A stretch of 64,000 nt of DNA from Lepidurus packardi (taxonomy: Eukaryota > Arthropoda > Branchiopoda > Notostraca > Triopsidae), in contig JAKZAN010000108.1 in assembly GCA_023053545.1 (NCBI GenBank), positions 1 to 64,000 on the forward strand, given 5' to 3'. Under the pieces are notes generated by a model. It saw only the letters and a list, made by a program, of their open reading frames with translations, ran no database searches and was not told the origin of the DNA. Positions 5,091 to 40,771 of the stretch are shown piece by piece. Position numbers and translations under genes: made by a program. The first letter of the stretch is position 1. The number at the start of each line of letters is the position of its first letter.

Positions 5091-6839
5091 ATGGCCAAAT
5101 ACTATCGCCTCGGCCAGCTGCTCCTCTGCCTCCTCTACCTATTCGGCAGTGCTCTTAGCATCTCCTATATCCCTAAACAAATTGGTAAACTCGTCAATGC
5201 TAACTCCGATCGCGAAAATCTCAAGTTCTAGCTCATGATCTTCTTAGTTTTGATAATAACAGCCGCAGTCTTCTAAATGCTGAAGGAGTACGCCATAAGA
5301 GTATTAGCATAGCGTATAGTAATGAATCTGCGACTCTCCACCTTTTCGCAGTTCGTGAGGAACGATATAGAGTTTTTTGAGAATAATGGAGTTGGGGCAC
5401 TCAGCACAAGACTTTCCGTCGACGCCAGCCAGGCTAAGAAAATTGCAACAGACAGTATCATGAATCTTATAGAAAATGTAATGATATTCAGCTTCAATAC
5501 GGCTATCCTACTTTTCGTGTCTTTCAGGGTGACTGCCTCTGTACTGCTGACCTTCCCTCTCTACATCTACACCTCCATCGGACTCTCTAAGAAGCTGAAG
5601 AAGTACTCGAAAAAGTGCAGTAAAACTCATGCCCAGGCACTCTGTTTTGTCGAAGAACGTTTTACTCATATACTGACTGTGAGTGCCTTTCACCGACAAG
5701 AGGTGTAAATTAAGAACTTTGAAATGTACTCCCAGAAGATCCTTTCAACCGTCAAACTTGCAGCTCTAACTAAAGCTATTCTTTCTAGCATTACTTACAT
5801 GCTACCTAAACTGTCGCTATTAATTGGACTCTGGATTGGTTTTGGGGATGGCAATGACTCTTAAGGAGCCGGCAAGATCACTACTTTTATGCTCGCTTCG
5901 ACCCAGCTCTCCAAAAATATGGATAGTATCGGAAGCAGCCTAGGTACACTCATCAGCAGTATGGGTTCTGTTCAGAAACTGTTCAAGCTGCTTAAATACA
6001 ACCCCAGAATCAGGCAGAACGAAGGCAACTAGTTAAAGCCGTTAGAGTCTTTCGAAATCGAGCTATGCAATGTAGCATTTATTTACCCTAATTCTGATGT
6101 GACTGTGTTCGAAAACCTCAATCTTAAAATCAGGTCAGGAGAGTACATCGGTATAGTTGGAGGCTCAGGAAGTGGCAAATCTACTCTAGTAAAGCTTTTA
6201 CTGAGGTTGTATGATCCCACATAAGGCAAAATATTGCTAAATGGAGTGGATATCCGAACCTACTCTGTTAATAGCTACCATAGTCTGATAGGATATGTCA
6301 GTCAAGAGCCTGTACTCTTTAGCGGAACCATCTAAGATAATATCGTGTATGATCACAGATAAAAGGTGTCGGAGTAGGATATCTAGCAGGTCGTAAACTA
6401 ATCCGGTATGAGTTTTGTAGCGGATCTACCCAAAGGAATTCACACTCATGTCGGCGAAAGAGGGTCAAGGCTCTCAGGAGGTCAGCGCCAGAGGGTGTCG
6501 ATCGCACGGGTATTGCTGCGTAAACCTAATCTTTTCCTATTCGACGAAGCCACAAGTGCTCTAGACGTCTAGAACTAAAAAATTATCAACCAATCAATTG
6601 ACCGGATAACTGCAGGCGATCGAAGTCAGAATGTTTGTGTATTGGTAATCGCGCACCGCATTAGGACTCTGCAGAACACGAGCAGGATTATCGTTATGGA
6701 AGATGGCGAGATAGCTGAAGACAGCAGTTTTTAGGAATTGTCTAAGACTCACAAGTTCTTTTAACATCTGAGAACTAAATAGTAGAATAATAGCACAGTA
6801 GGAGAGGACGAGTAGGAGAAGTCGAAGGAGGAGGAGTGA
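5091..6839 (+). CDS. ABC half-transporter (ABCB-type)
   Basis: One uninterrupted exon of 582 residues, opening with ATG at 5091 and closing with TGA. The N-terminal half is a type-I exporter membrane domain with several hydrophobic helices. The C-terminal half is a full nucleotide-binding domain: Walker [11 protein letters not shown]-loop YVSQEP, signature LSGGQRQR, Walker [13 protein letters not shown], and H-loop IAHR. One membrane domain plus one ATPase domain is the TAP/ABCB8/ABCB10-type half-transporter plan, which works as a dimer. It is on the short side for the family, with a compact N-terminus. Right after Walker B, ALDVENEK is written with TAG and TAA at the Glu positions, which supports UAR = Glu. 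The transported substrate cannot be deduced. Confidence 0.92.
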
Positions 6840-7053
6840 TTTTTGGCATTCTGGCGGGAGGACATCCAGAAATCTTGGAGAGAACTGTGACTCTGAAAAT
6901 TGATGGATAGTCAATCAATCCTCTACATGTTTCTCTATCTGCTAACATTCTATTTTTTTCCTATCATCTCTCCATATCGACACCGTCTGCTGAAATAAAT
7001 ATGATGTAGTAATCCGAGCCTTAGAAAATAACACTAGATCTACAAACCAGCAA

Positions 7054-7728
7054 TCACATGCTACGACTTATTACATCCTTACTTAGGATCTTCTAACTCC
7101 CACCTTGCTCAAACTCTAAAACATGGCTATGTTCGGACACCCCTCCTCCTGCCGAAGCCTTCCAACAAACAGTGAACCTCAGTACGAAAGTACCCCACCC
7201 GATACGCGCGAGTTCAAAAGGGGGGCTTAGGTCCACAATGGGTGGAGTGAAAGAGGGGTGCAAATGGATTCTGATCATTTCCACATACTCGTGAGTTCTT
7301 CCATGAGTCTCCCTGAAGTAGAACTTCCAAACATGCTTGTTGCCGTCAGGTACTGCTGTGTTTCCATAGTGGAACTTGATCGTCTCTAGTACGCTACTAT
7401 TATTGTTTCTTCCCATTCTTGCAACCATCTAAGGTTTGCTACTATTAATATTTTCGGCTTTGCCAGCACCCGATAATGGAGGACTCTGGTTTGTCGGTAA
7501 GCTGTTCTGTGTCATGCAACTCTGGATGAAGCTATTGTGTTGGAAGTCCGACAAAGGGTACGGCATTGAGCACAGGGAGCAGAGTAGAGATTCTTATGGG
7601 CCGACACTGATAGACTCAGCGCATCCCTTGCAGTAGGTATGCATACATTTGATAAAGGTGTGGGGGTTGTCGAAGAGTTGGTTGCAACGGGTGCATCTGA
7701 AGGGTTGTTATGAGGCACGTGGCTCCAT
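7054..7728 (-). CDS. RING finger-YEATS domain fusion
   Basis: A single exon of 224 residues. Residues 12-52 form a RING-type zinc site with C12, C15, C27, H29, C32, C35, C49 and C52. A low-complexity linker leads to a YEATS domain from about residue 112. Its hallmark blocks are HLHPSF (155-160), PPFEL (169-173) and GWGTF (177-181), which build the aromatic reader pocket for acetyl/crotonyl-lysine on histones. YEATS proteins (AF9, Yaf9, Taf14, GAS41) serve in chromatin and transcription complexes. A RING on the same chain would make this a potential histone-reading ubiquitin ligase. The frame is continuous between the domains with no intron. It is divergently paired with the Rab gene at 8109. 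Confidence 0.87.
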
Positions 7729-8108
7729 GGAGTTAGATGGATTGAACGAAGTTTAGTGAAGTTGACTTATATATGGAGTGTATTATTGGTAGACAGAAGT
7801 TAGCTATTGTTAGCGATGTGTGGAAGTGATTATTGAAAAGATATGTCTATAGCTATATGAGAAAAAGAACCCCCCCCCCTCCCCCCCAAAAGATTGATCT
7901 GGCTTGTTGCGATTCTCATATCCTCTATAAATATAGATTGACCTAATCCAATGGCCCCTCTTATTTTTAATATTATTTTATTAATCATTAGGAATCTTTC
8001 GAATGTAGAGTAGATTCTTTTTTGCTTTTCCTTCCAAACATCGACGCTCTTCACAATAGTTCTAAAGTAAAAAACCTAATACCCTAATATCGTATACATT
8101 CTCCCCTC
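7729..8108. other. Divergent promoter region
   Basis: A 380-base spacer between the divergently transcribed RING-YEATS and Rab genes. It should carry both promoters. Its only distinct element is the C10TC7 tract at 7870-7887. Confidence 0.6.
7870..7887 (+). repeat. Poly-C tract (C10 T C7)
   Basis: A homopolymeric C10-T-C7 run lies in the middle of an otherwise AT-rich divergent promoter region. The opposite strand is G7AG10 and could fold into a quadruplex. It does not match the telomere unit, since it has no A2 spacing. Confidence 0.8.
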
Positions 8109-8762
8109 ATGTTTTCAGGCTAAATACTCAAACTCATCATTGTTGGGGATTCTGCTGTCGGCAAGACCAAACTTCTCACTCGTTTCTGTGATAATGACTA
8201 TCGTGACGGCTATGTCTCCACTATCGGTGTCGACTTTAAGGTCAAGACTATTGAAATCTAGGGCTCCAAAATCAAGTTCCAGATCTGGGACACTGCAGGT
8301 CAGGAGCGTTATAGGACTATCGCCCAGACCTACTTTCGCGGGGCCAGCGGAGTCATCCTCATGTACTCAGTCACTGATACTGACTCCTTCAAGAATATAT
8401 GTAAAATATAACTTAAGTACTCTCTAAACTTAATCAATGACAGTATAGAAAGGTGGATGAACCAGATTAAGGAAACTAGTGACCCGAATATACAGCAGCT
8501 GTTGGTTGGTAACAAATGCGATGATGAGGCTTCAAGGAAGGTCAATCCTGCAGATGGGGAGGCTTTGGCAAAAAAATATGGCATACATTTTCTAGAGACA
8601 AGCGCCAGAGTGGGTACCAACGTCAAGGCAGCCTTCATGGACTTAGCTAATCAAATCATAGCAAACAAGACTTTACTGGAGTCTGAAGACGTGGCGAAGA
8701 AGGGCGAACAACTCGCAAAAAGGATGGAACCAGTAAAGGAGAACACATCATGCGGATGCTGA
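8109..8762 (+). CDS. Rab family small GTPase
   Basis: Two exons (8109-8400 and 8449-8762; 48-nt intron) give 201 residues, the usual Rab length. All G-motifs are canonical: GDSAVGKT, switch [28 protein letters not shown] and ETSARVGTN. The C-terminus is TSCGC, a CxC geranylgeranylation signal. The switch regions are closest to the Rab1/Rab8 secretory group, but I cannot assign the subfamily. The intron acceptor was placed so that the sequence reads [12 protein letters not shown]. The nearer CAG acceptor at 8441-8443 would break the frame. It acts in vesicle traffic on the cytosolic face of membranes. A second CxC-tailed Rab domain is only 4 kb upstream in the RING fusion. Confidence 0.95.
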
Positions 8763-8902
8763 GAATGAGGGATGGATAGGTTCGTTCAAGCCAACTGGAG
8801 AGTGCAGACTGAAAAAATAAATAACGTATGAGAGGACTGCTTCAATAATACTGCCGATCTATTTTTAACTAATTTATTTTATCGGAGGAGGTAACAGAGG
8901 GG

Positions 8903-10182: not shown

Positions 10183-11977
10183 TCAAGCAGTAATAGTACG
10201 AGCTTCGATTCTAACTTCCACATCTTTGTCGTCCACCAATGCCTCCACCAGTCCTTTGAATCTCAGGCTGCTCAACAGTTGCGGGTTGTTCTTCAGGATC
10301 CTGATCACCAGGTAACGCAAGTTCGGAACCTTGTCCTTCGTCATGTTCATCATTATCGGGAAAAAGTGGGTGTTCACGATCTCGTTCGGCACTGACTTGA
10401 TCACTCTTTAGATTATAAGCAGAATCAGTTGTCTCTGCAGATAGTTCGTGCATGCCTGGATCGTTGTGACCTTCGGTATCAGTTTGCTCTCCAGCCATTC
10501 AGTCGGGTAGGTCTTGAATAGAAGTTCAATCAACCCGATTGCTTTCTGTCGGACAGCGTCAATCTTATCGAAGGACCAGCTTATTATCAGGTTCAACATC
10601 CTATCGTTCATGAAGCTGGGGAACTTCACAAGTTCGTTGGTGATCTCGATGGCCTGGCATTTGGTGCGCCAGTTGGGAGAGCTGAAGAGCTGGCTAATGC
10701 ACTGGAGCGTGGTTTCCTCGAGTTGTTGCCAGGGGATGGACTCGGAGATATAGGTGAGGGATGAGAAGACAGACAGACTGGTCTCGGCGTTGGTATCTTT
10801 GAGGAACCCTGCGAGAATGGGCATGAGATATTCGCATACCGCCTGTTTGGGGACATATTGTGATAATGCCAGGAAAGACTTAGAAATTTTAACTATGAAT
10901 GGGTAAGAGTTAAGCAGAAAACGGGGTGAATGTTAGTTTATACCTCGCACATAGGGAACGGGATCGACGCTGAGTTTCTGTACCATGGGGATCAGAGTCT
11001 TCACGATATCGATGGGTTCCATCGTAGAGGCCACTTTATCGATGCAGGCACAAGCCGCGGCTCTGAGTTCGGGTTCTTGGTGCTGCAGGAACCCCAAGTA
11101 GTGTTGCTCCACGCATCCTCTGAACTGCATCTTGGTCATGATACGGGTCATAAAAGGGATCTATTCACAAATCTTGATATTTATTCTCCAGCTGTTGATC
11201 CTCAGAATACCGGCTAGACACTCCATGATGAGAGTGGGGTTCTGAGAATAGTACTGCATGGCCCCTTAAATCGAAAGCATCTTAATGAGATCCTCACGGT
11301 CACTGAGCAAAGTTTGAACTATTTTGGCTAGGGCAGGAGAACCTTCTCGTATGCTGGTGATCAAGGCCTTCAGATTTTTAGCCGCGATCTTGCGGATCTG
11401 GCAGTTCTGATCCAGACAGAAGGCTTGGAAGGTCTCGATTAGCAAGGTCTGGTTGGTATCTCTGGCCACGCCAGTCAAGAGAGAGACTCCTGCTTCCTTT
11501 CCTCGCAAGGAATCAGAGTCTATGAGTTTTTTGAGAAAGTCCATCACGAACTCTTCATTTTTCTTGATGTCTAGTCGTTTAATGATGCCTCTCAAGGCCT
11601 CGGTGGCCATTTCGGATGGTGTTTTCTCATCAGCCTTGGCCAAGTTGACGAGCAGGGGGACCAGAATTTTTTCGAAGGATTCCCCACCGAGATAAGGAGC
11701 GAGTTCGCGGAGGTTGGAAATCAGATGGGTGAGTACCTACTATTAATCGTCGATGAACTCTGCAGATTGTATAGAAAGGTAGTGTTGTTGGATGTAAGGG
11801 TGTGTGTGTTTTACAGTTGAGGAAGGGTACGAGTTCATTGCGTGTTTTTTCAGGACCGAGTGCAGCAGCGATAACCTTGAGGTTGGAGACTGAGTTGATT
11901 CTTTTTTTGATTTCCTCGCTTCTGAGCTCATCAAGGAGAGTGACAGGGACGAGTTGTTTGGAGTCGACCTTCTTCAT
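10183..11977 (-). CDS. PPP2R1A: PP2A scaffold subunit A (PR65)
   Basis: Three exons (11977-11815, 11759-10944, 10892-10183; introns of 55 and 51 nt) encode 562 residues, close to the 589 of animal PR65. It is an all-HEAT-repeat protein. The N-terminal helix pair LLDELRSEEIKKRINSVSNL followed by ALGPEKTRNELVPFL aligns with the PR65 signature (DELRNED..LRLNS, ALGxERTRxELxPFL). Each later repeat shows the expected pattern of paired amphipathic helices. The subunit holds the catalytic and regulatory subunits of protein phosphatase 2A together. After the first intron the sequence FIDDEEEVL has its three consecutive Glu written TAA, TAG, TAG (11737-11745), where PR65 has acidic residues. This is good evidence for the code. 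Confidence 0.94.
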
Positions 11978-13214: not shown

Positions 13215-15101
13215 TCATTAAGCAGTATCGCACCGGTAGATCAGCATGTACGCCTCGTGCTTCAGGGCTTCTTCGGCTGTAATCTATTTTACGGTTTCAT
13301 CGCTCATCTGGTACCATCTGCCCATTCGCCGAGACACGCAGTAGTAATGGCCTCTGTCCAGGGTCCCTTGGTGCACGATGATCGACAACAGTTCGTACTC
13401 AGTCGCGGCGCCACTGTATTTTAGATATTTCTTGAGGGTGAGTCTAGCAGGGTATCTCACGAGTTAGCTATTCTTCTTCTTGACTCCCAAAAACCTCTTG
13501 ACTGTCACCAAGAGATAGGCTGGGGTTTTACTCAGGAACTGCTGTTTAGTCGCAGTTGTCTTTTTCCGGCATCTATCGCAATCGTAAAGATCCTCGAGTT
13601 CTGTGTTTAGGATAAATGTTAAATAGATTTTTGATATTGTTACGTTAAAGTCTGAAGTGCCTGGCCAAACAGGCCTCTAGACTATCGTTGAAGATTTAGA
13701 CGACAATCTCAAGAAATGGCTCATGGGTGGTAGATTCATGTTCACACTCTTTACACTCGATTACTGAGCTTATCTGGCCAGCGAATATGCGATCCACGAT
13801 AGAAGGGTGGGTATTCCTATACTCCTCGAATGTCTGGTCGCTGTTCTGCTTAATTGTTTTGTTATTAGTGTTTTGGGTTTTGGCTGGCTGTGAGGATATC
13901 GGATTCAGTTCGTCCTGGAGAATGCCGAGGTAGTATCTGATGAACTCGTGGCAGTCCTGCTGCTGGGAGTGGCTGAACCTGTCTTCCAGCAGCTGGCAGA
14001 ACTCGGAAATGTCTTTGATCGGGTTTTTGGTGTCTCTTAGGAGTTTGAGAGTGTGATAAGTGTAGGAACAGAAGATCTTCTTTTCACGTTTTGTCGGGTG
14101 TTTGATTGAAGTATAGTTTCTATATTGCAGTTACAGAGGTTGAGATGAATGAATGATGATGATGATTAAAGATGTGTTGTACTTTGCTGAGAAGTAGAGT
14201 TGCAGTTCAGGGATTGTGAATAATGCCTGGATGCCGGTGTTTAGATAGCAGAAATACCGGTTGTTCTTTATGCCTGACGGCGTCAGCTACCGGCTCACGG
14301 GCTTCCCCTTGCTTATCTCGGGTCCACCCTTGTACAGTGCATGTATGACAGCCCACACTTTGGGAGTCACTAGATAATAGTCTACCTTTTCCCTGATGGT
14401 CTTCAGGATTTGCTTGCCTTCGACAGTCAGGATTTTATTATTGATTTATCTGATATGAGTCCTCTTCGGGTCATTGAGGAAAACAGTATATTCCTGGGAC
14501 CACTCCTTCTAGACTAGGTACATGACTGGTTCTTGGGTGCTGTTGGAACGTATGAACTCGGACTCTAGTCGCTTCCTATCGATATTGGTTGTTAGTTTTA
14601 TTTGTTTGTCAATATGATGATGATGTTTGGGGGTATAAGAAACAGAAAGTAGTATTTATTAGTTTTTTTCGGCTAGTGTCTTATTTAGTCGGAAATAATG
14701 GTTATCGTACCTTTAAATGATAGGCTTCTTCCTCAAGGTCTAGATGAAGTTGGTCATTTATCTGTCTGACTATCGCGACTGGCTCTGAGTAGTTGACCCT
14801 CCATACTCCGAAGTCCCGAAGGTCAGCGTAGTTATAGTACGCATGACATCCGTTTCAGTCGTTGTGCAATCATAATTACTATTAGACACCGTGAGGGCGC
14901 TGGGGTCGGATTTCCTGTTGATGGCAACGACAGACGAGTTGGGGAAAGGTTTGCTCTAGTCGACGAGTTTTATAGGACTGACCTGCAAGGAGGGGTAAGA
15001 TAAAGAGATGGATTGAGTTAGATGTGATGGAGCAGGGTGTAGATTACAACGTTGGTAGACTTAGTTTCACAGGAGAAGCAGGAAAAGAGGCTTTAGAGCA
15101 T
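13215..15101 (-). CDS. DUSP-USP deubiquitinase
   Basis: A ubiquitin-specific protease spread over several exons. Secure parts are: exon 15101-15048 (MLQSLFSCFSC...), 65-nt intron, an exon starting at 14982, a DUSP-like region (YYLVTPKVWAVIHALYKGG), the Cys box NRYFCYLNTGIQALF (about 14240-14260), a 63-nt intron (14182-14120), QQQDCHEF and FAGQISSVIECKECEHES with the zinc cysteines, a 43-nt intron (13643-13601), DCDRC, and the His box GHYYCVSRRMGRWY. The catalytic Cys, His and the CxxC pairs are present. Between 14845 and 14571 two frames are open, and the junctions there (a possible 35-nt and a 139-nt intron) are uncertain. The enzyme removes ubiquitin from substrates. The cysteine-rich N-terminus could be lipidated. 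Confidence 0.88.
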
Positions 15102-15190: not shown

Positions 15191-16361
15191 TCAAAAAGAG
15201 GAGAAAAAATATAAATATGTTATGCTTTTTTATACATAAGTTATGGGACTGGAACAGTAATTCTTGTTTTTCTTGGGATGCTATTGTGTGGCTGATTTTT
15301 ACTCGAAGGGCTAATATATTCTATGCTGTGTAGAATATCCATCAAGACATTGGATGAACTTCCTGTTTCCCCCAGCATTTTCTCTCCCAACGCATTTGAT
15401 CGATAGCTGACTAGGAACCATGCCCCCATTAATAAATGTATTGAGATCCAATTTGTGACTTCCAGGCTTTTGCATATGAGGGTTCGTCTCGTTGAAGTAC
15501 TCTTGACAGTGATCAGAAGATTCTCTAACAGCTTTTTCTAAACCCAACTTAGAATCCAATGAACTAATGATCAATTCTTCTATCGCAAATTCCTTCCCTA
15601 CTTCAGAAATTGCTACTACTCCGAATCTGTTCGTACACTTTCATTAGTATCTGCTCTCTTTTCTTCCTCAACCAGAGACTTGTCTGCAATTTCTGCTATG
15701 CTGAGCCTATACTTCCGAGTTGTAGGGGAGCGATCGGTGCGAGGTCACTTTGTGACTAGATATTATTCTTGAAAGACTGGGGTATTCCAGGACTCATGCT
15801 TCTCCGGTACTGGCCCAGCCTTGAAACCTCATCGTAACAAGAATTTGAAGAGATACGCGATTTCTCACACTTACTGCCTTTGAGGATCATTTTGGGTTGT
15901 GCTCGATTCTGCAAAGCAGGCAGATTTAAGTCTGTAATTTTGCGTCGCCGATCGATGATATCCAGAGCCAAGTCTTTCTGACCCCTGGGGGATCCATTAC
16001 GAACATTTCCTTTTTTATGCTCGATCGTATGAAATTTATCGACTGGTTCGTAAAGTTGCATTTATTTGATCTTAGGTAGACTGCTCTTCCGCTGCAGTAT
16101 CCGCTCTTATTTGATACGCAGATACTTCATCATCGACACTTGGGCTCCTATGGATAATCTATTGAGGTTGCTGACAGGACTGCCAGTCCCGGTGTCTTCG
16201 GTTTGGTGTTGGGGCTCATCGTTTTCCCAGGGAGCGATGGTGAGACCTTGATATTTCTTATGGTTGGGTAGTTGTTGGTTGAAATGGGTTGGGCTATCTA
16301 TGGAGAGGTGGGTGTCCTGGTAGAATAGAGGCTATAGTTAACTCGGAAAGTAGCGCTGCAT
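15191..16361 (-). CDS. Unknown basic protein, at least two exons
   Basis: Exon 1 runs from the ATG at 16361 to about 15716 and is rich in Gln, Ser, Arg and Lys. It includes DLALDIIDRRRKITDLNLP. Exon 2 lies in another frame and ends with TGA at 15191. It begins with the convincing stretch EFAIEELIISSLDSKLGLEK and continues to an AT-rich, less convincing tail. The join lies between about 15720 and 15620 but cannot be fixed. A GTATAG donor near 15716 and a TACTAAT branch-like site near 15650 are visible. No family is recognised. The tail past about 15310 looks like 3' untranslated sequence that stays open by chance. Confidence 0.55.
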
Positions 16362-16722
16362 TGAGATAAAACTTCAATATTTAATAGCCATAAATATATG
16401 TATATGTGGGTATATGTATCTATGTGAAGATATAAAAATAGATGGAAGGAGAGAGAGAGAGAGAGAGAGATTAGAATGGTGTACAAATAAATATATTGTA
16501 CCCAGTTGTTCTCAAATCAGAAAGCATCATCTTTTCATCTTTATATTTCTACACAGAGAAGCAACACTTTAATTATGATGATTATATAGCCATATGTAGC
16601 AGCTAGGGGTGTTCCTAATTGCGGGTTAGACTATATTATAATTCGGGTTGCCCTACCTTCTGCCTCGGATCCCATAATCAATAGCATTAAGTCATATAGA
16701 CATATTTCTACTAATACTATAT
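16362..16722. other. Divergent promoter region
   Basis: Gap between a minus gene starting at 16361 and the plus-strand flippase gene at 16723. It contains the (GA)11 tract at 16449-16470 and TA-rich stretches. No gene is seen. Confidence 0.6.
16449..16470 (+). repeat. (GA)11 microsatellite
   Basis: Twenty-two bases of perfect GA dinucleotide in a divergent promoter region, flanked by AT-rich DNA. Confidence 0.9.
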
Positions 16723-19700
16723 ATGAGAAGAGAGCCTGGGTCGCCCGTTGAACTCGACCTCCAAGTCCTGGACAAAAATAATAAACATGCCATCAAGGAA
16801 CCCCTCCTGGCCGAATAGTCGCGTTCTCCATCTTTCCGCACGATTGAGATCTAAAAAGGAGGCAGAGGGATCTACAATAACCCTGACGAAAATCCAAAAA
16901 AGACCCAAAAACAGACAAACAGCATCTGCAACCAGAAATACACAGTCATCACATTTGTCCCCAGGGTGCTATACGAGCAATTCAAGTATTTCTTCAACTT
17001 GTTCTACCTGCTGATTGCAATCTCGCAGTTCGTGCCCGCTCTGAGCGTGGGACTGCTCTTCTCCTATGTTGCTCCCTTGGCTCTCGTATTGTTCCTCACC
17101 ATGCTTAAAGAGGGCTACGAAGACTATCGCAGATATGTAAAAGATAAAGAAGCGAACTGTGCACTTTACTAAGTCGTGCAGGGCAGTTTTGATAATTTCA
17201 ATCTCGTGCAAGCTCAGAACCTAAAAGTAGGGGATATAGTCACGCTCAAGAAAAACCAACGAGTTCCTGCAGATATGGTTTTACTGTACACGACTGATCC
17301 GACCCATACTATTTTTTTTAAGACGGACCAGCTGGACGGATAGACTGATTGGAAAGTGAGAAAGCCCATTCGAAAAGTCAATTAAATCATCCATGAACAT
17401 CAGGGTTCTCTCGTGGAATTGAGTTTCAAGCTAAATTTCGAGAAGCCACACATTAAGATATACTCCTTTGAAGGTGCGTATGAAGAAGAGAACTATGTAG
17501 AAGGTTTGAATCTGGAGCACACCGCCTGGGCGGGGATGAAGCTAGCCAGCGGAAAAGCATACGGTATGGTATTGTACTTAGGCAAAGACACGAAAATGAC
17601 TCTTAACTCCAAGGACCCCAAAACCAAGTTCGGCAAGCTCGACCATTAACTAAATTTCTATAGCAAACTTCTGTTTCTGCTAATGTCCACGCTTTCCCTT
17701 CTTCTTATCCTCATGAAAGGCTCCACCGGGTCTACCTTCGGTCAGGAGAGTCTGACCTTCTTCAAATATCTTCTGCTGCTCTCTTCGATCATCCCGATCA
17801 GCATGAGAGTTAACCTTGACTTTGCAAAGCTAACATACTCCTACCTCATCAACAAAGATGCTTCGATTCCAGAGACGACAGTCCGTAATAGCAACATTCC
17901 TGAAGAACTGGGCAGGATTTAGTATATACTCTCAGACAAAACTGGTACTCTCACTAAAAATTAGATGGTATTCAAGAAACTTGTGATCGATGAAAGCAAT
18001 AGCCTTGAAGCAGATGAGCTAGAAATGTTGATAGAAGGCGTAAAGAGTTAGTGCAGGAATGAGAATTACAACGGACCGATGGCGGATTACGAGGAGGGCA
18101 AGAAGCCCCCACACAAGAGAACAAACGAACAGATCTGGAGAGATCTAGTTACTGCCTTGATAGTGTGCCACAATGTCACTCCAGCCGTTGAGGATGGTAA
18201 GAGGATTCTTCAAGGTAGTAGCCCTGATGAAGTTGCCCTAGTGACACTGGCCGAGTAAATCGGTTATACACTAGAGTAGAGATCGCAGACACATATCACA
18301 CTGTGTAATAGCACTCGCTAGAAGAAAGAGAATTATGAGGTTCTGGCTCTGTTTCCCTTCACTTCATAGCGGAAGAGGATGGGGATCATCGTCCTCCACA
18401 AGGAGACAAATAGGTACATTTTCTATCTAAAAGGAGCAGACACTATTATGAGACCCAAAATTGCGGTGGAAAGCAAGGCAAACATTATGGCTGAAGCCTG
18501 TACTGATCTGGCTACTGAAGGCTTGAGGACTTTGGTATTTTGCCAGAAACTACTCACAAAGAAGTAGTATACCTAATGGAGACGGGAATATGACCAGGCA
18601 AAAGCAGCAATGGTGAACAGATAAGCCCTGTAGAACAAAGTGATAGAAAGTCTTGAGCAGAATATGGATTTCCTAGCTATAACCGGAGTGGAGGATAAGT
18701 TGCAAGATAACATCCAATAAACCATCTCTAGTTTGAGAGGGGCAGGCATAGGATTCTGGATGCTTACAGGAGATAAAATATAAACTGCTATTTGTATATC
18801 AGTTTCCACACGCATTAAGTCACGGGAGCAGAAGGTGTTCGTTATACAAGATAAGGAGACACCCTAAACTTTCAGGGCCTCGCTGGCTGAGTTCTATTAA
18901 GTGCTGTAGTGCTCTCATAACAACTACAAAGATCGGTTCTTTAAGGATTTTCTTCTAGTCATTGATGGAGGTTCTCTGAAGGTTGCCCTGAGTCCTGAGT
19001 TTTCAGAAGAGTTTTTCGGTTTGGCTTCACGGATGCCTTCAGTTGTCTGTTCTAGATGTTCTCCTACCCAAAAAGCCTAGATCACTCTGCTCTTACGCCA
19101 ATATACAAATAAAAAGGTCTTGGCGATCGGAGACGGTGGCAACGATGTGGCTATGATTCAATCAGCAGATGTCGGCATCGGCATTTACGGAAAATAAGGA
19201 ATCCAGGCTGCCCTTGCCTCTGACTTCTCCATAACTGAATTCGGGTTCCTCAACTGCCTCGTGCTCTGGCATGGCAGACAGAGTTACAAAAGAAGCTGCG
19301 TGCTATCCCAATTCATCATCCATCGAGGACTCATCATTAGCTTTATGCAGGCTATCTTCACGGCTACGTTTTTCTATGTGGCCATCCCCATCTTCAATGG
19401 TGCTTTGATGCTTGGCTATTCTACGGTTTTCACTCTGCTGCCCGCATTTTCACTGATTTTTGATGAAGACATTACGCGATCTGTTGCTTTCAAATACCCG
19501 ATACTCTACAGGAGTGTGCAGGCCGGAGGATAGCTGAATGCACTCACATTCATTTACTGGAACTTCATAAGCATCTACCAGGTAAGATACTAAAAAACCA
19601 CGAATCTGCCCCCATTTTTTCTATTTTTCTTGACTCTAATCATAGGGAGCTGTAATCATGTTCTTGATTCTTCTTTTCTTCAAAACCAGCTCATTCTACC

Positions 19701-20061
19701 TGGTCACCACGATTTCATTTACCTGTCTTATCTTTATCGAGTACCTCAATGTCTTCTTCTCGGTAAACCATCCAATTATCTCAACCAACGCTCTCAGATC
19801 CATCATATACATATCATACACATAGTCTCCACGATAGTCTCTGCTGGGGTTTACGTGCTCACCATGTTTATAATGAAGAAAACCCTGAACCCTAGCTAGC
19901 TGATCACAGGCGATGCTTTGTTGTATACAGCAGTGATTGTGATGATAGCGTGGTTGCCTCCCTTTGCGTTCGGGTTCATAAAATCGAAGTTGAAGCCAAC
20001 AGAGGAATAGAAACTTATGAAGCTGTAGAAAACAGGTTTGATCCAGTTTTCCATTAACTGA
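16723..20061 (+). CDS. P4-ATPase, Neo1/ATP9-type phospholipid flippase
   Basis: Three exons (16723-19581, 19646-19762, 19798-20061; introns of 64 and 35 nt) encode 1079 residues. Typical landmarks are: N-terminal [23 protein letters not shown]; actuator motif DGET written with TAG (17341); phosphorylation motif [51 protein letters not shown]; and [10 protein letters not shown] before the last membrane helices. TDQLDGETDW, FPFTSERKRMG and WHGRxSYKRS are features of the Neo1/ATP9 class, which acts in Golgi/endosome membranes, in yeast without a Cdc50 partner. P4-ATPases move phospholipids to the cytosolic leaflet. Four invariant Glu positions are TAA/TAG here, which strongly supports the peritrich code. 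Confidence 0.95.
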
Positions 20062-20671
20062 TAATGACACTGTATCTAGAGTCTGATGGTAATATGAAAT
20101 GGTAGAGTGAGAGGGGAATGTAAGAATACAATGCAATATTAAAAACATCAAAACATCAACAAAGTATGTATGTGGTATACTATTTTTAATTAAAGATGAT
20201 GTGATATATATACATATGACTAAAGATCTGGATGCAGAGGGAGGTACCGTGACCTGTGTGTCGTTTTAGTGCATAGTTCTCATGTTTATACATCCACATT
20301 TTATGTGATGACTGGAGCAGTTCAGAATAATATAGCTAACTAACTATCAAAAACTAAAAATATAGTTTTTATGCTGGCATAGGTTTCTTACTTTACATAT
20401 TTTTAAATATGGTCAATATATTGGACCTAGTTATCGATGATCGTCTAGGAGCTTTCTAAGATGATCTATAATTTCTAATATGAGTAATATTTAACCCCCC
20501 TTCCTACTTTTCAATCGACTATCACACAAACCCTATCTATACAGCTAGCTATCTATCTCCTTTAAATATTTAAAAAATAGCTCTATCTTGGATACATTCA
20601 TCCCCATACTAATTCTTATATTTTTTAAGAAATCATCCCACAATCTATATATTACACCCCAAATAGTGTCA
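20062..20671. other. Intergenic spacer
   Basis: AT-rich 610-base gap between two plus-strand genes. The coding frame of the downstream acyltransferase stays open without an ATG for some distance upstream of 20672, but codon use is poor there. I see no separate gene. The apparent minus-strand frame at 20545-20862 is antisense to the acyltransferase 5' end. Confidence 0.5.
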
Positions 20672-22073
20672 ATGAAAAGCTCCCACAATTGGAGGTACCC
20701 CAACATCCCTCCTACCAATGATAACAAGACTGCTAAAATCAAAACCCAATAACGTGTCTCAATACTTGATGTTTTTTGTGCAGACAGCAGACTCAATAAA
20801 TCTGACTTCAGGGGGGTTTTCAACTTTATACTAATCCTAGGGATGTTCTTTCTCTTCACCAAACCTCTTCTGCACTTCCTCTAAAGTGGCAACTTCTTCT
20901 CACCTGGACTCTATAACACTTTCAAAAATGACTTCTTCCTCTGTCTGTGCATTTGGCCCCTCTTTAGTGTCTGGTATCCAATCCCCACCTTCATCCTCAC
21001 TCATATTTTGTACCCTGCTTTAGGTCTTATACGAGTTTTCTGATAGAAAAAGCTATCATTTTGGGACTCAGGCCAAAATTGGCACTCGTGCTCCAGCACA
21101 TGTCCCAGACCGGTCTGTTTATCTTTTCCATCTTACTCGTCATGAGCAAGAGTTGGTGCGTCACGCATTCAACCTTCGTCATCCTCCAGACTTGTGTGCA
21201 CTTCATGAAAATGCATTCCTACTCCGTCACAAACCGAGACTATCGTGAACAGATGGAGGAATCTAGAACTAGCAATAAGACAATTGCCCCACTTTCCAAC
21301 TATCCCCACAATGTGAATCTCCACAATTTTACATGGTTTATGTGGACTCCGAGTATCGTCTATGACTAATCATACCCTCGCAAAGCAACGCGTGACTGGT
21401 TTTACATCGCCAACAAGAGCCTAATGACTCTGCTCTGTATCATGGCTGCATATCTGCTACAAACAGACTACATCAGTCCCAATGTAGAACTCGGTCACTC
21501 CCTAAGTTTCATCGAGCTATTACTGAGATCAATGTTACCCGTGACGTTATTCCTGATCCTGGTATTCTACATCGTTTTCGAGAACATTCTCAACATATTC
21601 GCATAACTGACTCGCTACGGAGACCGTGAGTTCTATGAGGACTGGTGGAATGCAACCACTTTCTAGGAATTCAACCGGCTCTGGAATAAGCCTGTCCACA
21701 TGTTTCTATACCGACATGTGTATCTCGAGTGCATTGTACGATACCGAACCTCCAAGAGGTTTGCTCAACTCTTTACTTTCGCGTTTAGTGCTGCTCTTCA
21801 TGAATTTGTACTGGCTATCTTTTTCAGAACCATCAGGTACCACCCTTTACATCATGAAATTTATAATGTAGACCTATTTTACTGCTGTTCATGCTTTCTC
21901 AAATTCCATTGATGTACGCCACTCGGTCCTTGCGAGGGACTCAACTGGGCAATTTCTTCATCTGGTTTGCGCTGACTTCTGGGCCAGCCTTGATCATCAG
22001 TCTATACTTGAGATCGGATGTGAACGTGACAAGACAATTCACAGTCAAATTACCAATGGTCTAAGTTATTTGA
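20672..22073 (+). CDS. Sterol O-acyltransferase (ACAT/SOAT, MBOAT family)
   Basis: Three exons (20672-20973, 21024-21836, 21872-22073; introns of 50 and 35 nt) give 438 residues. The family signature FYEDWWNATTFEEFNRLWNK is present (about 21631-21690), followed by the MBOAT active-site His in SAALHEFVLAIFFR. The C-terminal block RPILLLFMLSQIPLM and GTQLGNFFIWF matches SOAT. The N-terminal RVSILDVF...DFRGVFN block also fits. Several membrane helices are evident. The enzyme esterifies sterols with fatty acyl-CoA in the endoplasmic reticulum; the related DGAT1 makes triacylglycerol, but the FYxDWWN form favours SOAT. The second intron was placed so that RTI-R-PILLLF is continuous across it. Confidence 0.92.
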
Positions 22074-22560
22074 AACTTTACAAATACATATGAGTGAGTC
22101 AGAAAAATGATGTTCTACGGATAGATTGAATTCGATGTTATTTTTCTACGCCATATTACTTCTATCGATGTAGAGAATAAAAGTAGTAGTAAACAGGTAT
22201 TTCTTCTATTTTTTATTGATGGACGAACATATACACTCCTGATAGCCTCTACTTATCAGAATCAATAGATTATAATACTGCACCTGAGATGGTTGGGATG
22301 GATTAAGGTTGATGCCAGATTGATTACTGACTTACTGGGGATCACGATTCTAGGTAGGATGGGGGGATCCCACACTATCTATATATATTATCGAATTAAA
22401 TAAAGATTAAGCTTAGTTTTTGAAAATTGCCGGTAAGCTGAAAACACATTGACTCTAATCAGAATCCCAAATCAGTGAAAAAAATATATTATTATTATAT
22501 CACCCTTCATAACGCTAAACTTTTACACATAATAATCAGTACCAAGATACTACTCTCCCT
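22074..22560. other. Intergenic spacer
   Basis: AT-rich 487-base spacer between tandem plus-strand genes. Short TA runs occur near 22380 and 22483. No gene or repeat of note. Confidence 0.5.
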
Positions 22561-25500
22561 ATGCAGGACTCTAAAAACTAGGTACAGCTCAAGGCCCTAG
22601 TCTGTTGGATGTGTGGCAGACAGTAAAACTTAATACCCCCTTCTACAACACACCCTATACATATAACCAATACAGATTCGGAAGCAAGAGTCTACACATT
22701 CATATCAAGTCTTGCGAAAAGAAATACAACAACGAGGAAGACAAGAAACCAGCAGCTTAGCGTAGAAAATGTACCCCATCAAATTGAAGACACTTCAAAC
22801 AAAATAACCCCTTTTTTATTTTCCATTAAACTTGTCATCCAGGTCCCCTTCCTCCTGCTGAGCTACAATAAGTTATCAATAATTAAGAAGCCACCCCAGA
22901 ACAGATCTCCAGGTATATAGCAATGATTTACATCATCAAAATGGTTCAATTTATCTCATAAATCGCCCAGATATAATGAAAAAGCCCTCTTGAAGTTCAA
23001 AAAGTAGGCTCTTCCGGCATGTAAAAATTGTGGAAGGACATTTAACTCCGAAAGTCTGGTCGTGCACGAAAAGGGATGCAAAGTAGAAATGTCTCACAAC
23101 CCATAAGGAAAAAGCAATGCTCCTTCTTCCGCAGCAGGAGATAAAGGAGGATCCGGAATCCAACGCAAAACAGTTACAGAATTGGATTTCAGAAAACCAA
23201 GAGTACTGATGTGCCCAATTTGTGGCAGATAGTTCGGTCTGGCAAGTCTGAAAATCCATTATCCGCAGTGCACCGACAAGTTCCAGCAAGAATAAAACAA
23301 AAAACCCAAGCACTAAAGAAGATAACTGCCTGAACTCTCTGAGCAAAGTAGGCTCAAAATGCAAAGCGAAGAGTATTGGACCTCCGAGGATATTGAGAAC
23401 TTTAACAGCTAGTCCAACAAAATCTATAGGGAGAAAGGTTTAGTTAAGTGCCATAACTGTGGGCGTGCATTCTTTATCGAACAGTTGGACAAGCATGCCA
23501 AGAATTGTGTTCTCATCAATGGGAAAATTAACACTGAAGAGTCTAAGCAAAAGCCTGCTGAACAGAAGCTAAGTAAACCCAGAGTCGTGATGTGTCATAT
23601 TTGTGGGAGGGAGTTCGGTACAACTAGTCTGACAATCCATCAGAAGAAGTGCGTAGAAAAATTCATGAATGAAGAAAACAAAAAACCCAAAGGTGCCGTT
23701 AAAAGACCAGTGCCCGATCTCCCACGATAGGTGCTGGAAAAATACGATATGGATAATATCACGAACTGGACAGATGAGGACCTCGAGAGCTATAATAAGA
23801 TTGTATATAACATTTACAACACCAAAGCCTTGGTTGCTTGTCCAGTATGCGGCAGAACTTTCCTTCCTGATAGTTTGGTGAAGCACCAGAAAGGATGCAA
23901 AGATAAGGACGAAGCTGGGCGACCCAAAGAGGCTTCAAACATAGGTGCAACAGGAGATAAGTAGTACCGAAAGCCTAGGACATTAGTTTGCTATATTTGT
24001 GGAAGATAGTTCGGATTGACAAGTCTATAGATCCACATTAAGCAGTGTGAAGAGAAGTATGAGAATGCATAGCGTAAGAAAGATATAGAGAAAAGACGTG
24101 CACTGCCATAAGTGGACCCTACTTTCATAGCCATGATAGGAGAGCCCCATTGGGATTAGAAACAAATCTAGGATTTTAACGCCTACATGGGCAACATCTA
24201 CAAGAACAGTGTTTTAGAGAGGTGTGTTAATTGTGGGAGAACCTTTCAACCTGAAGCTCTGCAAAAGCATGCCAAAAACTGTGTCAAACCCACACATGAT
24301 AGAGCCTCGATCTCAAATAAAAGTTAGCCATAGCACAATGCAAAGAGCTAAGCCCACAAACCACCACCTGTTCCGAAAAAGATAAACAATAATAACCATA
24401 TCAAATCAGAAAGTGTAATTGAGTAGAAAGAGTAGAGTCTGGAGGCGACAATGAGGGATGAAGAGGACAAAAAGGACTAGTCCAAATAGTCAATGATGCA
24501 AGAGTCCACCGAAACCAAAGTGAGTGATAAGAGCTAAGCCAAAGAGACACCAAAGCCACCCGAAGTCGAAAAACCGAGTATTAAGAAGCAAAATCCTCAG
24601 GCAAAGACATCAACTGAGAATCTAGCTGCTCGGTATACTGAAGCAATAAAACAACAGTAACTGCAGAACAGAGCCTCGAAAGAATAATAAAAACAAGCAA
24701 AACCCAAAATTGCTAGTAGCACAAATATTGATGCTAAAAATAATCAGAAGGGAGGCTCCAGCCAGAATATTGACTCTAATCCCTCAGCTATTAATAAGTC
24801 CCAGAAGCCAGAGCCTGCGACACCAAAAACTAAAAGCAGCAACTAATCAGCAGTCAAAAGTAAGGATCCCAAAAGAGAGACGACCAATGGGTTCCCTAAA
24901 GCTGCTATCCCTCCGAAAAAGGAAGAGCCGACCACGATTAAAAGCGAAAAGGAGTAAGCTATTCCTCCAAAAGACACGAAGAGTACTGAAAGTACCAACA
25001 AGACAGAACTATCATCAGAGATGACAAAGGCTCCTCCAGAAAATAAAGTCGAGAAGGCTCCTCCTGCCAAATAGCAAGCAACTCCACCCGTACCAGCACC
25101 CGAGAACCAAGAAGAACAAATGACTTTAGAAGAATGCAAGTTTTGTCATCGAAACTTTAACAAGACTCGAATCTAAAAGCACCTCAGTGTTTGCCCTAAA
25201 AGAGTAGAATAAAAACCCCAGCCCAAAAAATACAAGGAAGAACTCTTTGCAGATTCGAGTCAGCCAGTCAGCGAGACCGTCAATCTCGAGGTGTGTATCA
25301 AATGTGGTCGGAAATTTGCCAGTGATAGACTCTAAAAACACTCAGCTGCGTGCAAAGGTACCAAGAATGTCGAAGCACCACCAGGCGTTGTGCCTGCCAA
25401 AAAACCAGGACTCCCTGTGCAATAGCAACCCAAAGCATCTTATCCTATAGTATAGGATGAAAAATAACCTTAGAGTCAGCAAGTATTAGAAGCCTGCAGG

Positions 25501-26217
25501 AACTGCGGAAGGAAATTTACATCATAGAGATTACCCAAACATGAAGCAACGTGTAAGTCCAAACCTATACCTGGAAAGCCAGCAGGTGAAATTGTCAGGA
25601 AGGAAGAGAATCTGGGGAAACAGTTGCCTGCTCTCTAAAACCCACATCCACCTGCATTATAGATTATGACTGACCAATACTAAGAACCCACAGGCTTGTA
25701 GCCCTGTCCAAAATGCAATAGAAAATTCAAGCAATAACGACTCCAGAAGCACAAATAAGTTTGTAAAGAGGTTCCCATTCCAGTTCCAAACACTAAACAG
25801 CACCCTTCTTCCAAGAAATAACCTTAAAATAAAATGGATTCTCTTATCCCCCCTACAGAGTCTCAGTTCCGGATTCGTAAATCCCCTACACCCACCACCA
25901 AAAAGCTATAGGCCGAAACCCCAAAAGGCCCGTAGAGTCGATAGGTCATCAGCATGATGAAACAGCTTAAAGGCAATAAACTGTCAACTAAAGACGTGGA
26001 ATAGTAAATCTAGATAGAGTTGCAACAGATGCGGAATACATTCGGCAGTCGTTTCCCCCAGTAAGGCAGCTAGACAAAACAGAATCATGGAGGTGTTGGC
26101 TAAGGAGAGACTGTGAAGATGAGGAAGGACAATAATGCAAAAACGAAGGATAATAAAAAAACTGCAGCGACGGAGGGTCGAACAAATCATGGGATAGTAC
26201 ATCTTCCCTAAATCTGA
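22561..26217 (+). CDS. Twelve-finger C2HC zinc-finger protein
   Basis: Four exons (22561-22622, 22676-22770, 22843-22912, 22971-26217; introns 53, 72 and 58 nt) encode 1157 residues. I count twelve fingers of the ZC2HC1 type, CxxCxRxFxxxxLxxHxxxC. The first eight alternate between a CGREFG...SLxIH form and a CGRxF...LxKH form and are spaced by repeated acidic segments, so they look like duplicated pairs. A long Lys/Glu/Pro/Ser-rich disordered region (about 24300-25100) leads to four more fingers (CKFCHRNF, CIKCGRKF, CRNCGRKF, CPKCNRKF). Known ZC2HC1 proteins carry two or three fingers. TAG in CGREF agrees with GAG in sister repeats, again UAR = Glu. Function is unknown; ciliary or cytoskeletal roles are seen for relatives. 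Confidence 0.9.
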
Positions 26218-26524
26218 ACCAAAATATGTATTGAGTTGTTTAGGCATGTATAAAATACCGATACTTTTTTGGTTTGGTTAGATTTCTGTACTTTTGTATT
26301 TCCTTATTAAGTTCTTTTTAGTAATTTCCTCAGAAATTTCTTGGTCGATCGAATTACGGTCCATGCATACGATACGCTTGACCTTTATCAGAGAACATCT
26401 CAGCACTCCTAACCATGTGATTTGTCTAACTAGATTGAGGTTTAGTCCTGCTCAAAACCCTGATTGGACCTTTACTTTTTGCTCTTGTTTCTTATATACC
26501 TAGAATCAAGCAAATAATCAGATA
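26218..26524. other. Spacer between convergent genes
   Basis: About 300 bases between the stop codons of the zinc-finger gene (plus) and the next minus gene. AT-rich, no gene seen. Confidence 0.5.
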
Positions 26525-31177: not shown

Positions 31178-32804
31178 ATGGAATCTGCTATGTACTTGAA
31201 AAAGCAATGGTTCATCAAGTCCAAAACTGCCAATATCGAGGACCACTACGATATTGATATCAAAAAGGTACATTCTAATCATTACTCATACATTCTATTA
31301 ACTACTAGCCTCTCGGTACTGGTGCCTTCGGGACTGTCTTCAAAGGAAAACCTAAGGGCTCTAGCGACAACTCCTGGAGAGCCATCAAAAAAATACCCAA
31401 ACGCAAAGTCAGAGACCACTCCGAGTTCCTCAACGAAATCGAAATTCTGCAGAAGCTTGACCATCCGCATATCATTAAACTTTATGAGACCTACGAAGAT
31501 TCCCGCAACATCTACATAGTCACAGAGTAAGCATTCCAGTCATTTTTACCGATTTCGAATATTGTATGCAACCCGAAACCCATAAAAGTAGGGGATTGCC
31601 TTTTTTCCAATCATCATCTTTTTTGTGAGTTTCAACAAGTACCCTTTTACGGTTACATTAGGCTTTGTTCAGGAGGTGAGCTTTTCGATAAAATCATCGA
31701 GAAGGGTTCCTTTAGCGAAGAAGAGGCACGCGTTACCTTCAAACAGATGGTACTGGCAATCAATTACTGTCATTCTCAAAAAGTAGCCCATCGTGATCTC
31801 AAGCCTGAAAACTTCCTACTACTCAGTCGCGACCCTGGAAGTTCCATCAAACTAATCGACTTCGGGTTGTCATTCAGATTCAATGTCTCGAAGCCTAATG
31901 GCAAGGGCATGGGAACTCTCGTCGGAACCTCTTACTATATGGCTCCCGAAGTGATGCAGGGCAAGTATGACCAGACCTGCGATATCTGGTCTTTAGGTGT
32001 CATTCTTTACATCCTGGTCACAAGTGTGCCTCCTTTCAATGGATAAACTGACGAAGATATCCTCTAAAAAGTGAAAACTATGCAGTACACTTTCGACATC
32101 CCCGAGATGAAGGGCCTAAGTTCTTCATTGAAAGACCTGATTTCGAAGATACTGGTCGAGCCAACCAAAAGACCCACTGCTGAACAGATTCTGACGCACC
32201 CTTGGCTTAACACCAAGACTTCTAGCGAGCCCCTCAAGTTTAACTTCAATAGCCTAAAATCCTTCAGCAATTTTTCCAAAATTAAAAAACTAGGAGTCAC
32301 TCTCATTGCAACCCAACTGCAAGAGAAGGATATCCTCCAGCTCGGCAGCATGTTCAAACAGATCGACAAGAATAATGACGGGGTTCTCACTATCGAAGAA
32401 CTGAGGAATGCCCTAGATAGCCAGAAAGACAAACCCTCCATCGCAGACCTCAAACGCATCATCGACAGTCTGGACACCGATCATTCAGGAACTATCAACT
32501 ACACAGAATTCATTGCAGGCTGCCTGGAACAATCGACTCTGATGAAGGAAGATAACCTACACATGGCCTTCAGACTGATGGACGTGGATAACAATGGAAA
32601 GGTGACCCGCAAATAACTCGAAGAACTTCTATCCAGTAAAAACCCACATCTAAACTATAATGTGAAATATTTTATATGAACGTTGTAGAGGAGGAATATA
32701 AAGTAGGGAACAAAGATCTGGACGAGCTGATCAAGTCCTGCGACAAGAACGGAGACGGAGAGATCGACTACAACGAGTTCATGACCATGATGATGGGTGT
32801 CTGA
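31178..32804 (+). CDS. Calcium-dependent protein kinase (CDPK)
   Basis: Four exons (31178-31267, 31309-31526, 31662-32635, 32689-32804; introns 41, 135 and 53 nt) give 465 residues. The kinase domain has the glycine loop GTGAFGTV, catalytic loop HRDLKPENFLL, IDFGLS, and GTSYYMAPEVMQ. A junction segment precedes four EF-hands: DKNNDGVLTIEE, DTDHSGTINYTE, DVDNNGKVTRKE and DKNGDGEIDYNE. Kinase plus four EF-hands is the CDPK architecture of plants, ciliates and apicomplexans, giving Ca2+-switched Ser/Thr phosphorylation. Position 12 of EF-hand 3, an invariant Ca2+-binding Glu, is encoded by TAA (32614-32616). The short N-terminus lacks a Met-Gly myristoylation site. Confidence 0.96.
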
Positions 32805-33020
32805 ACGACGCAGCCATATGTATATCTGTAGGGATTATGATGCGGGGTGCAAATACATACATACTTACACGCAATGAGTCATTAAAAAATAGTATATTAA
32901 TGCTTGGAGGCCACAACCATGCCCCTTCCTCTACCCGGCCTTTGCTTGGACTTATAAACTAACATCGATGCAAACAGTTGCCATACATTTATATATATTT
33001 TATTGAGGGACACCCCAAAA

Positions 33021-33855: not shown

Positions 33856-33995
33856 ATGGGTGAATAGATAACCCTCTGTTTGGTTCATAGTTATCTTGAT
33901 TAGGAGTTCCTCTCTCCCATCATCTACAATTCTGATTAAACTTATATATAACTTAATGCAATACATACAATAAATTAGGCTTGGCGAAATATCTC

Positions 33996-35865: not shown

Positions 35866-36168
35866 TAGTCTTTTTAATTGCATCTTGGAGTTTCGTGCGT
35901 AATGAGTATGTGAAATTTGAGTGTCATCATTCTTTATGAGAGAGAATAACCCATATTTATATGGCTGCATTATCAGGGAAAGCAGACGAGGAGCCGAACA
36001 ACCCAATATATTGCGGGATCTTATACTGAAAAAATACAAATGCCGTCACTATTTAATCCAATCCTCAAACGACTCCAATATATCTCTATATATCATTATA
36101 TAATACTTATTTATAAATTCCACAGCTCGGAAAGACAGCAAAAAACCCTACTCCTCCTACTGCTATCG
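35866..36168. other. Intergenic spacer
   Basis: About 300 bases of AT-rich spacer between tandem plus-strand genes. Nothing is recognised in it. Confidence 0.5.
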
Positions 36169-38644: not shown

Positions 38645-38765
38645 CAAACTAATTATATGAGGAATGACATAAATATAATAATAATACGAAATAAATGATC
38701 ATCAATCTATTTTTTCTTTACTAAATTCTATTTGAAAATTGAAAAAACACTAACTTAACAAATCT

Positions 38766-40771
38766 TCACTATAATCTGCTCGTAGTGTTCAGCATGTAGT
38801 TACTGGATTACTTCAGAATTCCCTTCCCCAATGCAGATCTCATCTAAATGCTGTGACTCCCCTATACAACACTGATGTTTTTCTTGATACTACTCAGTTT
38901 CAGGTGGCTTATCTTATTGATCTTGCGTTAGTAACTATAAATTCGATGCAGCAAATCCACTTCCTTAGAATCTGGGGCACTTTCATACTGGAAAGCTTCA
39001 GAAAAGCTTTTTTCGAAGTAGTCCCCTTCTGTTTGGTCTTTTAGGATTTGGTTTTTGACCTGTACCTCGAAGTCCCGAACCTCAGACGTATCAAAGTTAA
39101 AGGAGGACGGGTCTGGGATGTAGGGAGGTGGTACTTCTTTGAGCTTAATTGCTTCGATGTTCAGCTTCCCAATCCATGGATGTATCAATATCTACTTGAC
39201 ACCAAGGTACCCTCCAAGGCGAAGCTTGGGGTTTTTATGAAGAAGTCCTCGCAGGAGTGATTGGATCTAACCAGATAGCCTGGTGTGAATTGGGAAAGTG
39301 AGTTATTAGTGGAGCACAGAGTGGTAGATTTAGTCGTGGTTTTTGGAATAGTAAGGAGGCAGGCCAGTGACTAGTTCGTAGAGTAAGGCTCCAATGCAGT
39401 AATAGTCTATCGTGAAGGAGTGTCCAGATCTAATAGTTGCGATGATTGACAAAAAAATGATTGAGGTATTTTTTTACCTTGCGAGCATTTCTGGGGCCAT
39501 GTATTCAGGACTGCCGCAGAATGAGTAACTGAGCTACTTCGCAGCGACCTGTGGCTTGGCGAGTCCGAAGTCTGCAATTTTAATATGGCCATCAATTCCA
39601 ATCAGCAGATTTTCTGGTTTGAGATCTCTGTACACGATATTTTTGGAGTGCAGATATTGGAGACCTAGAAGAATCTCGACAAAGTAGAACCGAGCCTGGT
39701 CCTCAGTCATTTTCTTGACCTGTTTGAGACGGTAGAACAACTCCCCTCCTGAACAATCTACAAAAGATTAACTTATTAGTCAAGGTTTATGGTTTTTTGT
39801 GTTTTACACTACAGAACCAAGACGAAATAGCTTTTGGTTTCGAACGCGAAGTGCAACTACACCAGAAATGGGTTCTTGCTTATCTACATGATGTATCTCT
39901 CGTTCTCCACGATCGCTTATCTTTAGTTTTAGAGGATAAACTGTTTGTCCATTAGTTTCATTGCGTAGTATTTGTTGTCGAAGTTCCCTCGCACTAGATA
40001 GACCTTGCTAAAACCCCCGGAACCGAGGCACTTCACCACTGTAAAGTCTGAGAGCGATACTTTATTGAGTTTATGTCGTTGGTACTCAATCGGTCTCAGG
40101 ACAAGTCGATCCTTTGGGATGGTTATATTGGGTAGAGAGATGAGATAGTCTAGTTATTTGCAGGCTTAGACTGTTTCGAAACCGATTGTTCGGAGGGCAT
40201 TAATCACGTATTGTTTGTTATCCATTGCTCTTCTGTACCACTCCTTTTTTAGTAGTTCTACAAACTTGCCAGAGTTTCGAGAGGGTATTTCGATGTAAAA
40301 GCTCTGCGATTCGAAACGTAGTTAAACTTGGATTGAGTCACAACGATCAGCCATACTTGGACTTGATTTTTTAGGTGATAATTCCTTTAGTACTGAACCT
40401 GACTTTTTTGTATGTGAGCTCTAATAATCTATCGAGTCTAGAATACCTTTTCGTTATAGGGATTCCTTCTTGACTGGATGTTGATGATGGGCAAGCGGCT
40501 CAATCGGGATGCTTGATCTAAGTATTTTGAGCATGCGAAGTTTGTGACTAGGAGACTCAAGGTAAGGGGAGTTCAGGATTTTTTTAAGACTAGACTTAGA
40601 TTTCTTGAGCGTATTTTTTATATCATTGATAGCCTGGTTGAGAGATGGATCAGGACTGCGGGAAGTGCCACGTTTGAGATTAGGAATGGACGGCTGATTG
40701 GGTATATGAGTACGGAGAGTGGTGAGAGGGTAGTGATGGTAGCTCTACTGGCTTTTGACATGTTTGAGCAT
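38766..40771 (-). CDS. AGC-family protein kinase
   Basis: Three exons (40771-39808, 39757-39478, 39429-38766; introns 50 and 48 nt) give 635 residues from the first in-frame ATG. A shorter start at 40354 gives 496. The kinase domain has GSGGFSKV, the ATP-binding [42 protein letters not shown], and an activation loop [11 protein letters not shown] of AGC type (usually FCGTPEY). The C-terminal extension includes HPWIGKLN and FSEAFQY, which resembles the hydrophobic motif FxxFxY that docks PDK1. VLEYC is spelled with TAG (39809-39811). The N-terminal 140 residues are Ser/Lys-rich and disordered. It is PKA/Akt/S6K-like but not assignable to a subfamily. Confidence 0.92.

Follow-up and report, generated by a model that had tools for sequence, protein, structure and literature searches.

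The window analysed here is the 64,000-nucleotide stretch at the start of contig JAKZAN010000108.1 (C97 in our numbering), which belongs to an assembly of 344 contigs and 108.6 Mb deposited under Lepidurus packardi, and its genes carry UAA and UAG (together UAR) in frame. A telomeric array, (CCCCAA)n, of about 27 copies with one run of seven C occupies positions 1 to 166 of the forward strand, from which the contig start can be taken as a chromosome end. Also on the forward strand are an ABC half-transporter with ABC_membrane and ABC_tran domains (5091 to 6839; 16 in-frame UAR between 5091 and 6770 and a closing TGA), a Rab-type GTPase (8130 to 8762), a P4-ATPase (16870 to 20061; 24 in-frame UAR between 16870 and 19680 and a closing TGA), a SOAT/DGAT-like MBOAT exon (20932 to 21912), a C2HC zinc-finger protein with 11 finger repeats (22927 to 26217; 54 in-frame UAR between 22990 and 26190), a CDPK with kinase and EF-hand domains (31258 to 32679) and a HEAT-repeat protein segment (41761 to 43040) with eight in-frame UAR and no TGA. 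The reverse strand carries a PR65-like HEAT protein (10183 to 11973), a ubiquitin hydrolase with DUSP and UCH domains (13399 to 15066) and a protein kinase exon (39707 to 40936). An initial annotation had proposed that UAR means glutamate (Glu) rather than glutamine (Gln) in these genes, with UGA as the stop. All 12 codons cited for this proposal are UAR in the reading concerned, those at 11737-11745 and 39809 on the minus strand.

Open reading frames of at least 500 amino acids number 12 in the window when TGA alone is taken as stop, three with TAA alone and five with TAG alone, and there are none when TAA and TAG, or all three triplets, terminate. Seven homology-supported segments (3660 codons) contain 58 TAA, 51 TAG and no TGA, where position-specific composition would predict 63.3, 55.6 and 27.0, respectively; the zero for TGA is partly by construction, as the segments are located within TGA-free frames. 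In their in-frame use UAA and UAG resemble normal sense codons. In these segments UAR makes up about a third of the codons that would specify Glu (109 of 326 UAR plus GAR). The zinc-finger gene, with 54 UAR in 1067 codons, is denser in these triplets than the other six segments.

The Rab-type GTPase ends in ...SCGC, which we take to be a prenylation-type C-terminus, and this motif directly precedes TGA (8760-8762), which supports TGA as the stop codon. Gene ends were inspected for two frames in the window (Rab and P4-ATPase) and three on other contigs (pelota and the frames L006 and L007), and all close with TGA; the Rab end is the only one fixed by a terminal motif, the other four being less informative because their frames were defined by TGA. 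A second TGA lies two codons past the first at the Rab (8760-8768) and P4-ATPase (20059-20067) ends, and none is that close at the other three. This doubling resembles the tandem UGA enrichment of Oligohymenophorea sp. PL0344, as given in the excerpt of PMC10553269 available. The nonstop code of Blastocrithidia is alike in reading UAR as Glu, and differs, according to the available excerpt of PMC12153298, in that UGA is tryptophan and UAA also serves as stop, whereas here the coding segments are without TGA and a TGA follows the Rab C-terminus. A tryptophan reading of UGA was rejected on the absence of TGA from the 3660 codons, with the location of the segments in TGA-free frames again contributing to that zero.

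The meaning of UAR was evaluated with full-length NCBIfam models, against which six genes were each scored in ten readings. The P4-ATPase and the ABC transporter came from the window, and Rpt2 (L004), an NVL-like protein (L003), an FtsH-like protein (L008) and a YME1/FtsH-like protein (L007) from other contigs; for each gene the model with the top score under Glu for both triplets was used, and bits were summed over genes. With readings given as UAA,UAG in one-letter code, the sums were 2946.8 for E,E, 2929.6 for E,Q, 2927.1 for E,K, 2923.1 for K,E, 2920.9 for Q,E, 2908.9 for D,D, 2903.6 for Q,Q, 2884.6 for S,S, 2832.9 for Y,Y and 2813.5 for L,L. Because switching one codon alone to Gln or lysine (Lys) loses 17 to 26 bits, these scores identify each of the two as a Glu codon: for UAA the lead of E,E is 25.9 bits over Q,E and 23.7 over K,E, and for UAG it is 17.2 bits over E,Q and 19.7 over E,K. 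Reading both as Glu ranks first in four of the six genes, and the P4-ATPase supplies most of the summed margin. When this gene was scored under 16 uniform readings (all amino acids but C, F, I and P), Glu (914.0 bits) exceeded Asp (897.7) by 16.3 and Gln (895.0) by 19.0, with Lys at 894.5. Tyrosine, the assignment of the Mesodinium code (table 29), was rejected at 113.9 bits below E,E in the six-gene sum.

Alignments with homologues place UAR at invariant or near-invariant Glu sites of the P4-ATPase, the ABC transporter, the CDPK EF hand and Rpt2. For the P4-ATPase, 23 UAR sites were read by eye against four distinct homologues, and their approximately 90 ungapped cells include 26 Glu, 11 Asp and 6 Gln. 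Three of these columns are identical in all four homologues, and all three are Glu: the TAG at 17341-17343 (DGET), the TAA at 18781-18783 (GDKxET) and the TAA at 19195-19197 (G-x-E-G). In the ABC transporter, 77 of 80 bacterial exporters have Glu opposite the TAA at 6576-6578, and Glu is the commonest residue (21 of 80) opposite the TAG at 6570. The four columns of this gene with at least 70% Glu use two TAA and two GAA, and the two with at least 70% Gln use CAR. One of these TAA, at 6222, faces Glu in 71 of 80 rows, a count biased by search peptide patterns that carried Glu at UAR sites; restricted to the 14 rows without a search pattern, Glu occurs in five. The CDPK gene, which has a 135-base GT-AG intron (31527-31661), carries a TAA at an EF-hand Glu (32614) that faces Glu in all five rows shown, two of them near-identical chains. 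The in-frame TAA at 31528 was discarded as evidence, as it lies inside the intron.

Some additional sites point in the same direction. The acidic run TAA-TAG-TAG of the PR65-like protein (11745-11737) faces E, D and E in the sole PR65 hit, and in the MBOAT exon, which carries UAR at 21367, 21604 and 21664, the TAA at 21604 faces Glu in three of three rows. On other contigs, Rpt2 has four aligned UAR sites, two of them UAG; of the two distinct chains shown, the human one reads E,E,E,E at these positions and its counterpart E,E,D,E. All four rows shown have Glu opposite one UAG of L007; at the Walker B UAA of this protein two rows have Glu, and the other two, presumably trapping mutants, have Gln. 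The TAG at 39811-39809 of the kinase exon follows VLVL inside the kinase-domain match, and no homologous chain was retrieved around it at E <= 1e-30, so this site has no residue-level alignment. The HSP70 proteins are poor test material: the matched part of the ciliate BiP-like L174 has one UAA, with Val opposite it in the bacterial DnaK L173, and the aligned part of L175 has no UAR. Conserved Gln residues are encoded by CAA or CAG, as the initial annotation had noted, in SGGQRQR (6474), SPTQKA (19060), AGQE (8295) and QQQDCHEF (13965, minus strand; CAG at the QQQD of the ubiquitin hydrolase).

A reference-free comparison of the window with ciliate paralogues on contigs C258 and C262 yields a similar picture. 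In 32 pairs where UAR is aligned with a differing codon, the partner specifies Glu in 11, Asp in three, Lys in two and Gln in one, with others scattered; the background in these alignments is 55 Glu and 31 Gln among 1208 aligned codons. Residues of an intron-bearing P4 homologue on contig C3 that face UAR are Glu in 6 of 13 cases and Gln in none. Within the zinc-finger protein, three repeats have UAG, GAR and UAG at one shared site (ICGR-x-FG).

Several observations weigh against reading both triplets as Glu. Among the profile scores, the NVL-like L003 is best under K,E (404.3, compared with 403.5 for Q,Q and 403.2 for E,E, which trails by 1.1 bits), and two further L003 models also rank K,E or Q,Q at the top. 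Three of four archaeal PAN models favour Asp for Rpt2 (best 402.3 versus 399.7, a gap of 2.6 bits), and another model of the ABC gene, outside the sum, favours E,Q (317.2 versus 315.9). Pfam domain models give smaller gaps between readings than NCBIfam models, sometimes with reversed sign: the preference is for Gln by 0.5 bit in ABC_tran (126.6 versus 126.1), for Q,E by 0.6 in E1-E2_ATPase and for E,K by 0.2 in Hydrolase. The zinc-finger gene hardly tells Glu from Gln (267.4 versus 267.2). At the residue level, the P4-ATPase codon at 18367 faces E, D, A and T in the four homologues, the DGAT1 rows shown have G and T opposite the TAG at 21664 (TTFEEF), the TAA at 21367 faces P or L, the TAA at 32065 of the CDPK faces Lys in three of five rows, and Ser or Lys stands opposite another UAA of L007. 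Pelota offers no UAR site that consistently aligns with Glu, and in three of three distinct homologues the residue opposite one of its UAG is Ser.

The conserved Glu sites of the initial annotation thus fared unevenly: those at 32614, 17341, 18781, 19195 and 6576 are strongly borne out and those at 6570 and 11737-11745 are supportive, whereas 18367 and 21664 do not hold as conserved Glu. Taken together, the initial observation is partly confirmed, and its interpretation is supported.

The near ties listed above, among them ABC_tran, the zinc-finger gene and L003, could be read in favour of Gln for both triplets, as in the Tetrahymena and Paramecium code (table 6), which is alike in using UAR as sense codons and UGA as stop, and Gln is the most reported ciliate reassignment according to the excerpt of PMC10553269. 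Such a code would nonetheless leave the six-gene sum 43.2 bits lower, would agree with one of the 32 paralogue pairs, and would have to accommodate UAR at invariant Glu sites beside four inspected conserved Gln motifs that use CAR; we regard it as extremely improbable, and the claim that UAR means Glu, not Gln, stands. An equally slight prospect is a code in which UAA and UAG differ, for example UAA as Lys and UAG as Glu. PL0344 has this split and shares UAG as Glu and UGA as stop with the window, and the Lys rows at 32065 and the L003 score would fit it; however, K,E lies 23.7 bits below E,E, and UAA occupies invariant or near-invariant Glu positions at 18781, 19195, 6576 and 32614. That UAR is ambiguous (mostly Glu, with some Gln or other residues), or that some genes still end at UAR, is marginally less remote and still very unlikely. 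Several non-conserved UAR sites do face many residues, and the title of a 2020 paper on three peritrichs refers to 'less biased stop codon usage', but UAR occurs near its composition expectation inside conserved domains, which we take to tolerate little error, and the five inspected gene ends are all TGA, even if a terminal motif secures one of them.

Translation with Glu at both triplets would make UAA and UAG synonymous with GAA and GAG and leave UGA alone to terminate. By analogy with known ciliates, UAR would be decoded by tRNA-Glu genes with UUA and CUA anticodons, of which UUA can pair with both triplets through wobble, and eRF1 would be altered so that it recognises UGA alone. The excerpt of PMC10553269 describes suppressor tRNAs and wobble in PL0344 and Tetrahymena. 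Searches of the assembly identified neither part. Suppressor tRNAs were not found with two anticodon-loop/T-loop patterns, a form of search that missed a ciliate tRNA-Glu(UUC) as well, and no ciliate eRF1 was present among five matches; the only match on a ciliate contig (L039) was rejected as eRF1 because it turned out to be pelota. A pattern for standard tRNA-Glu(UUC), used as control, had 49 matches, none recognisable on ciliate contigs; the two that resemble a tRNA on small contigs lie on C55 and look bacterial. All eight hits of a D-arm pattern for tRNA-Glu fall on C1 and C2, which are large contigs. ARAGORN, applied to 11 short stretches of small contigs, reported one tRNA-Lys with default settings and two poor low-threshold calls (Pro and Tyr), and an RF00005 family search, in which 63 of 5192 candidates were scored, identified no suppressor tRNA. 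Because the search for the standard tRNA-Glu(UUC) was also empty on ciliate contigs, no conclusion is drawn from the absence of suppressor tRNAs.

The assembly seems to combine a chromosome-scale genome of animal type with bacterial and ciliate contigs, labels assigned by judgement and not by phylogeny. Contigs C1 to C6, on every one of which matches extend past 10 Mb, carry tRNA clusters and at least one gene with an intron, and look animal. Bacterial-type genes occur on some small contigs (L001 on C53, a CCA-ending tRNA on C52 and DnaK on C333), and other small contigs look ciliate. A DNA search of the assembly with positions 16000-26300 of the window gave seven matches, those to C262 and C258 at 68-69% identity and the others short pieces; a short match of positions 16390-16472 to the large contigs C3 and C4 has 75-78% identity. 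The ciliate of the window may be a cobiont.

With a probability of about 0.96, we conclude that the window is ciliate nuclear DNA read by NCBI table 30 (UAA and UAG as Glu, UGA as the sole stop), most likely from the macronuclear chromosome of a peritrich. The code reading is supported by the profile sums, the residue alignments at conserved sites, the codon exchange between paralogues and the CGC-TGA end of Rab. A C4A2 telomere is also that of Tetrahymena, and this repeat and the CDPK would fit a ciliate. The peritrich label is suggested by the code match together with the C4A2 telomere, and not by phylogeny. Table 30, labelled 'peritrich nuclei', is assigned to Campanella umbellaria and Carchesium polypinum, and no difference from it was seen here. 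Code predictions for these two species appear in the excerpt of PMC4967479, where a 2003 paper by Sanchez-Silva is cited whose title speaks of 'translation of UAA into glutamate'. If a ciliate outside the peritrichs had reached UAR as Glu independently, the code would have arisen a second time in ciliates, and we consider this unlikely. The code itself is already known, and the addition is one more genome that uses table 30. If the assembly were annotated under the standard code or table 6, its UAR-using ciliate genes would be broken or mistranslated. For the peritrich code, the window contributes a further long chromosome end to the available data.

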